From a virus, in IMG/VR virus record IMGVR_UViG_3300025164_000228, positions 1-22,079 of that record: 22,079 nt of DNA, one strand, 5' to 3'. The notes under the pieces are model-generated. The model worked only from the letters and a program-made list of their open reading frames with translations, was not told the origin of the DNA and made no database searches. Of this stretch, positions 5,509 through 21,511 are shown one piece after another. A program made the position numbers and the translations under genes. The first letter of the stretch is position 1. Each line of letters begins with the position of its first letter.

Positions 5509-5682
5509 ATGGCTGTTGAGGCAAGACTTGCTGCTTTGGAGGAGCAAATGGCTGATTACGATGTACGCTTAGTCGATGTTGAAAATCGCGTGCTCACTTT
5601 CGACACTGTGGTTGCTATAGGCAGGTGGCTTATACCAATTCTTACGGGTACTGCGGGTGTATTGATTGGAAAGTTCGGATGA
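5509..5682 (+). CDS. XhlA-like small membrane protein (lysis accessory)
   Basis: The 57-residue product has an N-terminal coiled coil (L-A-A-L-E-E-Q-M-A-D-Y-D-V-R-L-V-D-V-E-N) followed by one membrane helix near the C-terminus (W-L-I-P-I-L-T-G-T-A-G-V-L-I-G). This two-part design matches the XhlA/holin-like group that works with phage lysis proteins, and the gene sits just before the endolysin. The ATG lies four bases after the previous stop and the TGA overlaps the next ATG (ATGA). The family call rests on architecture, not on residue identity. Confidence 0.6.
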   Translation: MAVEARLAALEEQMADYDVRLVDVENRVLTFDTVVAIGRWLIPILTGTAGVLIGKFG

Positions 5683-5993
5683 ATCGGGCCGACCTTACTG
5701 CACTAGTTGGTTCGATCGCTATTTTCGGTCTGTCAGCTTTGTTTCTAATAATTGCGCTTCATGCACGCCGGTTTCAGCGTTATGGCCGTGAAGCACTTGG
5801 TTGCGCTGCCGCGTGGACTTTTATTGTTGCTCTTTTTAGATGCCTTAACGTTACCGACATAATTAGTACAGATACTTTTCGCTCTATAAATACGGTTTCT
5901 GCTATTGTATTTCTTGTAATTTTAGGCCAAATTGCGTGGCTCCGTCGCGTAGAGCATAATAATGGGAAAAGGAGAACAAATGCGAACGCTTAA
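5679..5993 (+). CDS. Small membrane protein with about three helices, possible holin
   Basis: I start at ATG 5679, which overlaps the previous stop as ATGA; the frame is open further upstream, but that part overlaps the XhlA-like gene. The 104-residue product has three hydrophobic stretches: about residues 7-28 (A-L-V-G-S-I-A-I-F-G-L), 40-60 (A-A-A-W-T-F-I-V-A-L-F), and 70-90 (A-I-V-F-L-V-I-L-G-Q-I-A-W-L). It ends in a basic, polar tail. Position just before the endolysin suggests a holin or antiholin role, but another holin candidate follows the endolysin, so the division of labour is unclear. Confidence 0.6.
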   Translation: MNRADLTALVGSIAIFGLSALFLIIALHARRFQRYGREALGCAAAWTFIVALFRCLNVTDIISTDTFRSINTVSAIVFLVILGQIAWLRRVEHNNGKRRTNANA

Positions 5994-6732
5994 ACTAACA
6001 AGTCCGCTCACTACCGGGCCTGACGTTACTAGGTTGCAGAAGGCGCTAGGCAGCTACTTGCAAGGTAGCGTAGACGGTGAGTTCGGGCCTGACACAAGTA
6101 GAGCAGTTTTTAGGGCTAAATACTGGCTAGGTTACGCTAACCCCGATCATGCTGCTGGTAACATGCTGCTTAACTTGCTTGAGGGTAAGCGCAAGCCTAA
6201 CGCTGCTATGAAAAAGCGCATTACTGCACGCAAGAAAGCTGCTGCCAAGAAACCTATCAGACTCAAAATGCTGGCAGAAGCTAAGAAGTGGGTAGGCACC
6301 AAGGAATCGCCTGCTGGTAGTAACCGCGTTAAGTTTAGCTTGTGGTATAAAATGATCGGCCCTTGGTGCGCCATGTTCGTTACATGGTGTGGTGTAGTTG
6401 CCGGTAGTAAAGCGTTTCGCCGTAGTGTGCGGTACGCCTACGTTCCTTACATGCTTGCTGACGCTAAGGCTGGTAACAACAACCTAACTGTTACCTATGA
6501 CCCACAACCAGGCGATCTTGTACTATTTGATTGGGACAATGACACCGTAGCTGACCATATTGGTCTATTTGAGAAGTGGCTCACCAAGAACCGTAGTAAG
6601 TTTGCTAGCTACGAAGGCAACACATCAGGTGATAACTCAGGCTCACAGAGTAACGGTGGCGCTGTAGTTCACCGCGAAAAGTACCCACGCTACAAGACCG
6701 ATGTTATTGCTTTTGTCCATGTGGGTGCGTAA
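5980..6732 (+). CDS. Endolysin: peptidoglycan-binding domain plus CHAP amidase/endopeptidase
   Basis: I choose ATG 5980 because AAAAGGAG sits just upstream; the earlier ATG at 5962 would place this site inside the gene. The ~250-residue protein starts with a PG_binding_1-like domain (T-G-P-D-V-T-R-L-Q-K-A-L, V-D-G-E-F-G-P-D-T), then a basic Ala/Lys linker, then a CHAP domain. In CHAP the catalytic Cys is probably in G-P-W-C-A-M-F-V-T-W-C, the His in A-D-H-I-G-L-F-E, and the acidic/Asn partner near E-G-N-T-S. It should cleave cell-wall amide bonds at the end of infection. There is no signal peptide, so a holin is needed for release. Confidence 0.88.
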   Translation: MRTLKLTSPLTTGPDVTRLQKALGSYLQGSVDGEFGPDTSRAVFRAKYWLGYANPDHAAGNMLLNLLEGKRKPNAAMKKRITARKKAAAKKPIRLKMLAEAKKWVGTKESPAGSNRVKFSLWYKMIGPWCAMFVTWCGVVAGSKAFRRSVRYAYVPYMLADAKAGNNNLTVTYDPQPGDLVLFDWDNDTVADHIGLFEKWLTKNRSKFASYEGNTSGDNSGSQSNGGAVVHREKYPRYKTDVIAFVHVGA

Positions 6733-7145: not shown

Positions 7146-7576
7146 TTCATTAGTACGCTAAGTTTGCCGTACTTGCTACCGGCACCAAACTTGTAGTAAG
7201 CTAGCAAATGGCGCGTAGCATCGCGTGCATGTTCTTTACCCACAGTGTAGCAATTAAGTTGGCGCAAGCGCGCATCAGTGAAAAACTGCATGGCATACGC
7301 AGGCTGTTGTGGCGCTAGCTTAATTCCTACATGCTGCCCATACAAATTTATTACTCCAATAAGGTTACGTGAAAAAAGTTCCACACCTGCACGAGCACGT
7401 TGCCTGAATTCAAAGCGTTCGTAAATTATTAGCCCAGGGTGAACTTCGTGCAGAAAAGTCCACAAATCATCTTCTTGCCATTTAGCTTGCGCAGCTATGA
7501 ATTCGAGTGTATTGCCTTTAAGCTCGCTTCTTGTGTAACCGCTAGTTATTCCTGGGTCTAAGCTAACGACAATCAT
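7142..7576 (-). CDS. RuvC-like Holliday junction resolvase
   Basis: I start at ATG 7576, which overlaps the HNH gene stop as ATGA; the upstream extension lies inside that gene. The ~144-residue protein has the RNase H-fold pattern of phage RuvC-like resolvases: first acidic site in V-S-L-D-P-G-I-T-S-G-Y, second in L-I-I-Y-E-R-F-E-F, and a late H-A-R-D-A-T-R-H-L-L-A-Y where His and Asp complete the metal site. It should cut four-way or branched DNA during late replication and clear DNA for packaging. The length matches phage forms. The fold call is confident; exact substrate preference is unknown. Confidence 0.82.
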   Translation of the reverse strand: MIVVSLDPGITSGYTRSELKGNTLEFIAAQAKWQEDDLWTFLHEVHPGLIIYERFEFRQRARAGVELFSRNLIGVINLYGQHVGIKLAPQQPAYAMQFFTDARLRQLNCYTVGKEHARDATRHLLAYYKFGAGSKYGKLSVLMK

Positions 7577-8028
7577 AAGCGAGGCCACCTGAGCCTCATT
7601 TTGATAATTCTTTTAGCTTCTAAACCTGCAATTACTGCATCTTTAAGAAAGCCCTCAAATTCTTCTATTTCTCGTGAAGAGTAATCATAGTATTCCAAGA
7701 CCTTTTCGTACTTCTTTCGCAATCGCTGTTTAATAAACTTCCGCTTTTCACTCATAGTCGGAAATACTTTACTACCTGCTAGACTGTTACATTCGCGGCA
7801 GCATGGTACTACATCACTTTTTCGAGCACCTAAATCGGCCATCATGCGCGTAAAGCTCTGAGGAATAACATGATCGCGCGTATCTGCCGTCATTCCGCAA
7901 TAAAAGCACGGACGCATTTTAAAAGCTTCGCGTCTGCACTTGTCAGTACAGTAGAGCGCTTGCCCGCGTTTCTCTGGGGGTATCCACGCACCACACCATA
8001 CGCATCGGCGTTCTCTATGCTCAATCAT
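7573..8028 (-). CDS. HNH-type nuclease with N-terminal zinc ribbon
   Basis: The 151-residue protein has an N-terminal zinc module (C-V-W-C-G, then L-Y-C-T-D-K-C-R-R-E-A-F) followed directly by an HNH domain: C-F-Y-C-G with D-H-V-I-P-Q-S as the catalytic D-H, and C-C-R-E-C-N-S-L-A-G. The C-terminal half is charged and helical. HNH proteins of this size in phages may be free-standing homing nucleases or part of DNA processing. Here it sits between a zinc-finger gene and the resolvase with short overlaps (8 and 4 bases), so it is integrated into the operon. The zinc ribbon closely resembles that of its upstream neighbour. Confidence 0.72.
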   Translation of the reverse strand: MIEHRERRCVWCGAWIPPEKRGQALYCTDKCRREAFKMRPCFYCGMTADTRDHVIPQSFTRMMADLGARKSDVVPCCRECNSLAGSKVFPTMSEKRKFIKQRLRKKYEKVLEYYDYSSREIEEFEGFLKDAVIAGLEAKRIIKMRLRWPRL

Positions 8029-14929: not shown

Positions 14930-15673
14930 TTAGTTGATTAGTGCCCATAACATAGGAATCGACGGATTCTCAACAACACCGCCAAGATTCCCTGTACGAT
15001 CTTTAGCTCTAATGGCTCGTGTAGGCGTTACCTGCAACCTCCGCTGTATCACCTCCCCATCTTGAACTACGTACATGTAGCCTACTATGTCCATAAAGCC
15101 CGGAATGTGCGCTCTTAGCTTACCGGGAAGGTCTGGATGGTAAGTGATTGCACCACTATCCGCTTGTACTGTTGCTGCTAGAGCGGTCATAATCGTATTG
15201 CACGGTAGATCACGGAACGCTCGCACAATACTGCGTATGTGTTCTCCGCTCTTACCCCACTCACGTTGATCGGGTACGTCAGGATCACGCTCTGGCTTAC
15301 GTGATACAAGCTCGCGCATAATGTCGCGCATATCGAGCTTCTGTAGCTCAGTTAGGGAATCAATTACAACGGTCTTGTAATACTGCTCTTTCGTAAGTTG
15401 ATCGTAGATTTCCTTGATCTGAGTAATAGCACGCACAGACACTACATCAATATCTGTACGGTGCCTAAGCGTGACAGTACCACCCTCAACGTCGATAATC
15501 AGAACGGGTCGCGTATCTTCGTGATCTTGTGCTGTACCAGCCAGGTATGTTTTGCCTACACCTGGATCGCCATACACAAGCAGGTTAAGCCACGGTATTG
15601 CTTCTACGGGTGATACGGCTCCGATCCTTTCTCTTACAGTGCTTGTAGTAGCTGCTACTGCTGCTATAGTAAT
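14930..15673 (-). CDS. RecA-fold ATPase of Sak4 type, probable non-standard start
   Basis: Walker A is Y-G-D-P-G-V-G-K-T-Y-L-A and Walker B is T-V-V-I-D-S-L-T-E-L; a late A-K-D-R matches Sak4-type phage ATPases that work with ssDNA-binding proteins in annealing and strand exchange. The first ordinary start, GTG 15577, lies only two codons before the P-loop glycine and would remove the first strand. Coding character continues upstream (I-P-W-L-N-L-L-V-Y-G-D-P), up to an in-frame TGA at 15676-15674, and a strong AAAGGGGGTGA site sits right there. I therefore place the start at ATT 15673 (ATA 15667 is also possible), giving ~247 residues. The start is an inference. Confidence 0.75.
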   Translation of the reverse strand: MTIAAVAATTSTVRERIGAVSPVEAIPWLNLLVYGDPGVGKTYLAGTAQDHEDTRPVLIIDVEGGTVTLRHRTDIDVVSVRAITQIKEIYDQLTKEQYYKTVVIDSLTELQKLDMRDIMRELVSRKPERDPDVPDQREWGKSGEHIRSIVRAFRDLPCNTIMTALAATVQADSGAITYHPDLPGKLRAHIPGFMDIVGYMYVVQDGEVIQRRLQVTPTRAIRAKDRTGNLGGVVENPSIPMLWALIN

Positions 15674-19763: not shown

Positions 19764-19935
19764 GTTCGCAGCCTATGATTACAGTACCTACTGAATCAAT
19801 AATACCCAATTTCTGTAGTGTTTCGCAAGTAACACAATAAGTAAGAATGTCACCACTACCTAGCGTGTACGTTACAAGAACCGTATCACGCTCCATATTA
19901 CGATGGCAAGCTGTGCAATATTTACCAGTATCCAC
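19753..19935 (-). CDS. Small zinc-ribbon protein (60 residues)
   Basis: The start is GTG 19935 with AAAAGGAGGTATA just upstream; it shares one base with the helicase stop (TAGTG). The product has Y-C-T-A-C-H-R-N-M near residue 7 and Y-C-V-T-C-E-T-L-Q-K-L-G near residue 33, two C-x2-C knuckles with beta strands between, a typical zinc ribbon. It is likely nucleic-acid binding or structural. No specific family is known to me. Confidence 0.68.
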   Translation of the reverse strand: MDTGKYCTACHRNMERDTVLVTYTLGSGDILTYCVTCETLQKLGIIDSVGTVIIGCEHDS

Positions 19936-21296
19936 TATACCTCCTTTTCTGGGCCAAACACCTCATCAAACCAACCTTGTTTTGTACGTGTTACTAGTTC
20001 AACTCGCTGATCTGTTGTTCTACGTGCGTTGATATGGATGATCTGTGGTACATCGGTTTGGCCTGGTCTGTCAATACGAGCTACACCTTGCTCGTTATCT
20101 TTGGGACTCCATGACCTGTCTAGGAATATTGCTGTACTAGCTGGCGTAAGGTTAATGGACTCGCTACCGAGCATAAGAGTAGCCATGAATACTTGGTGTT
20201 CTTTCTTGGGAAATAATGTTGCCCATTTTTCAAACCGTACTCTATCATTATCTTTCTGTTCCATATGAATGTACGGAATCTCTACCCTGTCAAGACGTAC
20301 TTTGAGTAACGCAAGTGGATCTTTGAAGTTAGAGAACACTACTACTTGCTGCCGAGAGTCCTCGTCCCACTCCATACCCTCTAGAATTTCCATTAGAGCA
20401 TCTAGCTTACTTGATGGTTCTTCTAGCGTAATTTCGAGCCGGGTACGTTGTTCTTTTTCGTCGAAATACTCACGTACAACCTTCGGAGTTGCCACTGTGA
20501 TTTGACGAAGGCGTTGTAGAGCGGCCAAGACGTTAGGTGCATAGATAGGGGTACCTTCCTTATCCAACGTTTCCAGATAGGCTTTGATTTCGTCATACAT
20601 TCGGCGTTGAATTGGGTTAAGGTCTACTTCTACAGGTGTGTAAATAGGCTCAGCAAGGTTAGTGAATACCTCACGCTTGCGCCGTCGGACACCCACTGTA
20701 TACAGTAGGTCTTTAAACTCTTGCTTCGTACTTGGGTTAATACCTGTAATTCTGCGGAAACCACCATTATCTACTGTTTCTGCACAAAAGTATTCACGAA
20801 AGCGCCAGTAGCTACTGAACGTAAAGCGATCGAGGAAGTTAAGCAAAGACCACACTTCCGCGGGATTGTTGATGAATCCCGTACCTGTCATAATGTGCTT
20901 ATATTCGGCGCGTAACTTCTTGATATTCCTAGTCCAACCTGTCGTGCGTTCCTTGATCCTGTGGGCTTCGTCAAGAACCACGAAGTCCCACTTTGTATTC
21001 AGTACCTTCTCAAGTAGTGGGTTCTTATGCTTCTTGGTGCTATCTTTCTTCTTGCGTTCAGTAAAGAACTGATAATGAGTAACTACGAACGTAGGTTTAT
21101 TATTGAGTGCTAGTGTATCATCGACGGGAAACTCGTGTCCATCGAAAACTAACGTAACTTTTCGTGTACTCAAGTTGAGCAAATTCCAATCAGGTAGTAC
21201 ACTAGGTACAGTTTGGAAATAAGTGCCCTTACCTGACTTTGTAGTTACTACAAGAACTTTCGGGTTCTCAACGCCTACAAGTAGTTTTTCAGCCAA
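19935..21296 (-). CDS. SNF2-family DNA helicase, main part downstream of an in-frame TGA
   Basis: The open part shows helicase motifs in order: K-V-L-V-V-T-T-K (Ia), W-D-F-V-V-L-D-E-A-H-R-I-K (II, DEAH), H-I-M-T-G-T-G (III), Q-V-V-V-F-S-N-F (IV), E-S-I-N-L-T-P-A (V) and Q-G-V-A-R-I-D-R-P-G-Q (VI). Motif I is missing from this frame alone. The first possible start, TTG 21296, has no ribosome-binding site and lies after the P-loop. In-frame sequence upstream supplies the missing N-terminus, including P-loop remnants, after skipping or reading a TGA at 21332-21330. So translation probably depends on recoding, or the gene is damaged. SNF2-type phage helicases remodel or unwind DNA during replication. 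Confidence 0.8.
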   Translation of the reverse strand: MAEKLLVGVENPKVLVVTTKSGKGTYFQTVPSVLPDWNLLNLSTRKVTLVFDGHEFPVDDTLALNNKPTFVVTHYQFFTERKKKDSTKKHKNPLLEKVLNTKWDFVVLDEAHRIKERTTGWTRNIKKLRAEYKHIMTGTGFINNPAEVWSLLNFLDRFTFSSYWRFREYFCAETVDNGGFRRITGINPSTKQEFKDLLYTVGVRRRKREVFTNLAEPIYTPVEVDLNPIQRRMYDEIKAYLETLDKEGTPIYAPNVLAALQRLRQITVATPKVVREYFDEKEQRTRLEITLEEPSSKLDALMEILEGMEWDEDSRQQVVVFSNFKDPLALLKVRLDRVEIPYIHMEQKDNDRVRFEKWATLFPKKEHQVFMATLMLGSESINLTPASTAIFLDRSWSPKDNEQGVARIDRPGQTDVPQIIHINARRTTDQRVELVTRTKQGWFDEVFGPEKEV

Positions 21297-21323
21297 CCAC
21301 TGTACTGTTGTAGTTTTATAACA

Positions 21324-21335
21324 ACCTAGTCAGCC
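21324..21335 (-). other. Candidate recoding site: GGC-TGA-CTA-GGT in the helicase P-loop
   Basis: On the - strand the codons are ATG GGC TGA CTA GGT TGT TAT AAA ACT. Gly codons GGC (21335-21333) and GGT (21326-21324) flank the stop, both readable by one tRNA-Gly. Skipping nine bases between them would give E-M-G-C-Y-K-T, with motif I spacing as in E-M-G-x-G-K-T. Readthrough would give E-M-G-x-L-G-C-Y-K-T. Neither is proven. Confidence 0.4.
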
Positions 21336-21470
21336 CATCTCACTCCAATTAGCTGACCAAATTCGACTAGCAAGATGTTCAATATCGTCTACTTGCCAAT
21401 TAGTTGGCTCATAGACAATGGAGTGAGACGGCTGCATCACCGCCTCAGCCTTAGAAGTCTGGTCTTGCAT
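21330..21470 (-). CDS. N-terminal 46 codons of the SNF2 helicase, ending at TGA in the P-loop
   Basis: The frame starts at ATG 21470 (or GTG 21476, forming GTGA with a mini-ORF) and ends at TGA 21332-21330. It encodes the Q-motif-like W-Q-V-D-D-I-E-H-L-A and ends A-N-W-S-E-M-G, where helicase motif I begins. The same reading frame continues after the TGA as L-G-C-Y-K-T-T-T-V-Q-W-L-A-E-K-L-L into the main helicase. As a free 46-residue product it would have no known function. It is best read as the front of one interrupted gene. Confidence 0.7.
   Translation of the reverse strand: MQDQTSKAEAVMQPSHSIVYEPTNWQVDDIEHLASRIWSANWSEMG
21331..21434 (-). repeat. Inverted repeat spanning the N-terminal helicase segment, one arm ending on the TGA
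   Basis: In mRNA sense the first arm (21434-21419) is CAGCCGTCTCACTCCA and the second (21347-21331) is TGGAGTGAGATGGGCTG. They pair as 10 contiguous plus 5 contiguous Watson-Crick pairs with a single G-U/bulge step between, around a 71-base loop. The last pair includes the G of the TGA. The paired segments encode Q-P-S-H-S and W-S-E-M-G, so the structure lies in coding sequence. Confidence 0.75.
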
Positions 21471-21472
21471 AC

Positions 21473-21511
21473 TCACCGAATAACTCCATCCCAATTCGTA
21501 ATTTTATCCAC
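21473..21511 (-). CDS. Possible 12-codon mini-ORF before the helicase
   Basis: GTG 21511 has AGAGGTAAATA in front and the frame (M-D-K-I-T-N-W-D-G-V-I-R) ends at a TGA overlapping GTG 21476, the alternative helicase start. It might act as a leader that couples translation to the helicase. It could also be spurious; its length gives little support. Confidence 0.25.
   Translation of the reverse strand: MDKITNWDGVIR

Follow-up and report, generated by a model that had tools for sequence, protein, structure and literature searches.

The minus strand of the window, as we call the whole 22,079-nucleotide stretch analysed here (a 22-kb phage contig), encodes an SNF2-family helicase whose motif I is interrupted by a TGA. 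Is this gene broken, or could the ribosome cross the interruption and still deliver a complete helicase? The gene, all of whose features given below lie on the minus strand, extends from ATG 21470 (optionally GTG 21476) to the stop at 19935. Its frame, read from ATG 21470, gives MQDQTSKAEAVMQPSHSIVYEPTNWQVDDIEHLASRIWSANWSEMG, TGA, then LGCYKTTTVQWLAEK..., and stays open up to the stop ending at 19935; its first 46 codons end in SANWSEMG and the same frame resumes past the TGA at CYKTTTVQWL. GTG 21476, with GGAG seven bases 5′ of it, may be the upstream start instead of ATG 21470, judging from this context. At motif I the DNA reads GAG ATG GGC TGA CTA GGT TGT TAT AAA ACT. The N-terminal coding piece (21336..21476), which aligns with the N-termini of intact relatives, ends in SANWSEM with the Met codon ATG (21338-21336), and is followed by GGC (21333..21335), Gly codon 46 from the ATG, the conserved MG glycine of the family and our proposed take-off codon. 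Then come nine extra bases, TGACTAGGT (21324..21332), comprising the in-frame TGA (21332-21330), CTA (21329-21327) and GGT (21324..21326), the proposed landing codon, which the same Gly tRNA can read as GGC. TGT (21323-21321), the first codon after GGT, opens a downstream frame of 462 codons (19935..21323) leading from the CYKT of motif I through the later SNF2 motifs to a TAG.

The protein is a genuine member of its class: it matches the Pfam domains SNF2-rel_dom (4.9e-22) and Helicase_C (3.1e-10) and the PHROG 62 DNA helicase (1.3e-78), and besides these two domains it carries the DEAH of motif II and motifs III-VI of SNF2-family SF2 helicases. On re-reading the window, the position and sequence that the initial annotation gave for an in-frame TGA within motif I proved correct, as did its statement that the main frame alone lacks both motif I and a good start, for once the N-terminal piece is taken away, the first start in the downstream frame is TTG 21296 and motif I is missing.

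What a normal motif I looks like was established from 56 distinct helicases besides that of the window, collected by an alignment-based scan, which gave four closer ones, and by two more scans. Exact-peptide scans with the window proteins alone did not find these relatives, the genome contigs searched held distant SNF2 proteins only, and the published-phage collection gave distant relatives only (best about 29% identity); no isolated phage carrying this helicase family was found. The family (L088-L144, L258-L301) consists of soil-phage-like SNF2 helicases. It is uncultured, and the nearest of its 55 distinct intact members is about 55% identical to the window helicase. In 55 of the 56 relatives motif I is continuous, reading MG-x-x-K-T with zero inserted bases; the first x is C, A, S, T, V or G and the second mostly Y, F or M. 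In a 34-row alignment G30, K33 and T34 are invariant and the residue before the Lys is not Gly. The Walker A pattern GxGK[ST] is thus absent from the 55 intact relatives and is retained, as GxGKT, in the outgroups L303 and L306, so that by these alignments the missing second glycine is a trait of the whole family and not damage. The earlier worry over a Tyr in the window P-loop dissolves in the same way: since the intact relatives all read MG-x-x-K-T, mostly with Tyr, Phe or Met at this place, it is a family trait. An AlphaFold model of an intact member (L089) resembles INO80, ISW1 and CHD4, and in it the motif I stretch follows strand 22-25 and precedes helix 30-47, the arrangement seen in P-loops.

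Compared with its relatives, the window is longer here by exactly nine bases, sited between GGC and TGT and missing from the 55; whether relatives would lack just these nine had been raised beforehand, and they do, reading EMG-C-F/Y-K-T without interruption. When other viral contigs were searched for the exact DNA of the site with its insert, no match was found. Pattern searches for inserts of 1-31 bases at motif I matched only L015 and the unrelated L248. L015 and L144 are one contig (IMGVR_UViG_3300047160_000907), and this is the only other relative with a disrupted motif I, at the identical point. It reads GAG ATG GGT TTATCGGT TGT TAC AAG ACT: the insert, TTATCGGT, is eight bases long, follows the same Gly codon as in the window and also ends in GGT. 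Because the sole other disrupted relative is broken at the same point, the disruption in the window is more than chance. The observation is confirmed, and strengthened by L015 as a second case.

The two carriers differ in instructive ways. The Gly codons are GGC and GGT in the window, GGT and GGT in L015, and the codon after the first of them is UGA in the window and UUA in L015, the rarest Leu codon of that contig yet still in use (8 of 117). In L015 the upstream and downstream frames differ, and the 495 downstream codons are open solely in the frame that a hop would give. The eight-base insert shifts the frame, and therefore readthrough cannot join the two halves of this gene. Minus-one frameshifting in L015 was rejected, as no good slippery site was seen there and the window would be left unexplained. 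A recoded TGA was also discarded (TGA terminates 3 of 13 window genes counted, and the standard code fits elsewhere), as was selenocysteine, for which the downstream hairpin is weak and L015 cannot fit.

We tentatively regard a short ribosome hop between Gly codons as the best explanation of both inserts, at a confidence that stops short of even. The ribosome would translate 46 codons, the last being GGC for the motif I glycine, and would pause at a slow A-site codon, UGA followed by C in the window and UUA in L015. The peptidyl-tRNA-Gly would then detach from GGC and re-pair with GGU nine bases downstream (eight in L015), a single Gly tRNA reading GGC and GGU serving both take-off and landing, and decoding would restart at UGU to give E-M-G-C-Y-K-T, the normal motif I of the family. 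By moving from GGY to GGT in this way, a Gly-tRNA would restore the family motif in the window and in L015 alike, and the hop would cover both cases in one step. Three features of bypassing of the T4 gene 60 type are found at the site: an insert absent in relatives, codons read by the same tRNA, and a stop or slow codon after take-off. The initial annotation had offered either a hop or readthrough; the layout of a hop fits both phages, and readthrough fails for L015. That a second phage has eight bases inserted at this very point, again between Gly codons, favours a hop, on sequence grounds, above readthrough or random error. The prior for a hop is nevertheless low, because, according to a review, no natural instance of in-frame stop-hopping is known (PMC5009743).

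Parallels are covered in PMC5009743, PMC3014915 and PMC11194080, and comprise T4 gene 60, synthetic stop-hops, Hau3 and yeast mitochondrial inserts. T4 gene 60 has a 50-nt gap, a Gly take-off, a stop and a landing on Gly, and its insert is linked to homing endonuclease invasion. Our site resembles it in being in a phage gene, in having a Gly take-off, an immediate stop (window), a matching Gly landing and, in the window only, a predicted hairpin that covers the take-off codon, and in that the insert is missing in relatives. Unlike T4 gene 60, with 47 bases between GGA and GGA, the gap here is 5-6 bases, the window codons are GGC and GGT, no KKYK-like nascent signal was recognised and the bypass is a proposed one. 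Synthetic E. coli stop-hops (PMC5009743) resemble the hop proposed here in crossing a stop over a short distance, with one tRNA reading both codons, but they skip codon-stop-codon, 9 nt per residue, whereas here 12 and 11 nt would yield one Gly, and in natural sequences rather than constructs. In the terminase of Streptomyces phage Hau3 and prophage StrepC.1 a bypass at UUA has been proposed (PMC5009743), and L015 likewise has Gly then UUA in a replication-type phage gene; unlike there, the gene is another one, UUA is used elsewhere in L015, and the window has UGA. The bypassing elements (‘byps’) of Magnusiomyces capitatus mitochondria, found at 81 sites and largely context-independent (PMC5009743), are also short frame-breaking inserts, skipped in translation of functional genes, but here there is one site in two phages.

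The window insert completes a predicted mRNA hairpin with upstream codons, AAUUUGGUCAGCU..GGCUGACUAGGUU (21323..21363), whose 5′ arm is 21363-21351 and whose 3′ arm, 21335-21323, consists of GGC, the insert and a U. Random 9-base inserts fold as stably in 0.2-0.5% of cases in two short contexts and in 3-13% in two others. The L015 site folds no better than random inserts, so a hairpin common to both carriers was rejected, and the window hairpin would at most be an aid in one phage. No KKYK-like nascent-peptide motif was seen by eye, nor any nascent-peptide signal common to both, and no Rfam family reached gathering strength at the insert site.

Ordinary readthrough of the UGA, by Trp or another residue, would give EMG-x-LG-CYKT with three added P-loop residues. 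In bacteria a UGA is leaky when C comes next, as it does in the window, where the frame is open even without a hop. The added residues would fall in a loop of constant length in all relatives, no suppressor tRNA gene was found within the window, and the frame change in L015 is beyond repair by this route, which leaves one case unexplained; we judge it very improbable. An artefact of sequencing or assembly, or a contig joined chimerically, in one of the metagenomes or in both has a somewhat better claim but is still unlikely. Related contigs do contain lesions of other kinds: a 7-base insertion in helicase motif V of L134 (6140-6260), the only other helicase affected in 58 loci, and a deletion with frame change in the exonuclease gene of L123 (3900-4040), the only one in 48. 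Both come from metagenome 3300020020, whose assembly may be less reliable. It also counts for an error that a RecA-like ATPase gene of the window (14930-15664, minus strand) seems to be without a standard start codon. Its alignment with relatives extends 5′ of the first ATG/GTG/TTG (15577), and a strong SD-like AAAGGGGGTG precedes the opening ATT ACT ATA GCA, which suggests that translation starts at ATA or ATT, or that the start codon has been lost. Against an error, two distinct inserts fall on the same base in contigs assembled separately, 8-9 novel bases are atypical for a read error, and in both contigs the remaining genes that were checked have open frames.

A more serious contender, possible though on balance doubtful, is a recurrent inactivating insertion at a vulnerable site in motif I. 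Both helicases would have been recently broken, motif I being a nuclease target (of a homing endonuclease or of the host) or a repair hotspot whose breaks are mended with filler bases, and the products would be a 46-residue fragment in the window and a slightly longer one in L015. The family does acquire short insertions, as in L134, where the 7 bases lie within a perfect 12-base inverted repeat with its partner about 40 bases upstream and no matched codons, by its sequence a templated frameshift of the template-switch type. Local template switching was rejected for the window and L015, neither insert copying nearby sequence. Matching Gly codons can stem from a short duplication during insertion, and microhomology repair could yield the flanking GGT repeat without any hop. 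L015 has two HNH-type endonuclease ORFs, one (5555-6034) overlapping the end of the insert-bearing helicase gene and another further on (7283-7726); in the neighbourhood of the window helicase none of this type was found, which speaks against the inactivating view. So does the coincidence of the same base being struck twice by events that are both compatible with a hop. Given 58 genes, each about 1,500 bases long, and three lesions by insertion among them, a hand estimate puts two on one base at about 0.2%, and the chance of each insert ending in GGY at about 1/32. Neither helicase shows further damage: otherwise invariant family positions are changed at 0 of 47 in both, root-to-tip lengths of both carriers (summed by hand) do not exceed those of intact neighbours, and the other window replication genes with relatives align free of frame breaks. 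Neither insert-bearing gene thus shows any decay; a recent insertion, too young for such signs, would look alike, and function is unproven.

In the tree the window and L015/L144, whose phages, both from soil, are only distant kin, belong to one 9-member clade without being sisters, and the intact L089 and L093 are closer kin to L144 than the window is, which requires two gains of the insert, or one gain and several losses. A hop at the same codon in two lineages, the inserts possibly shielding the gene from a nuclease that recognises motif I DNA, is conceivable, but we would not lean on it. The hop itself is probably no invented regulator but a tolerance of an insert acquired for another reason, such as a changed nuclease target, by analogy with what has been suggested for T4 gene 60; that hop yield controls helicase dose is speculation. 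The HNH gene after the L015 helicase offers a weak link, again by analogy, between a bypassed insert and homing endonuclease invasion, weak because no such gene was found beside the window helicase.

The only firm cases of natural bypassing are T4 gene 60 and those of some yeast mitochondria (PMC5009743). If the hop proposed here is true, two short and simple cases at one codon would provide a minimal natural system for the requirements of ribosome hopping, and some phage genes currently annotated as broken may be expressed.
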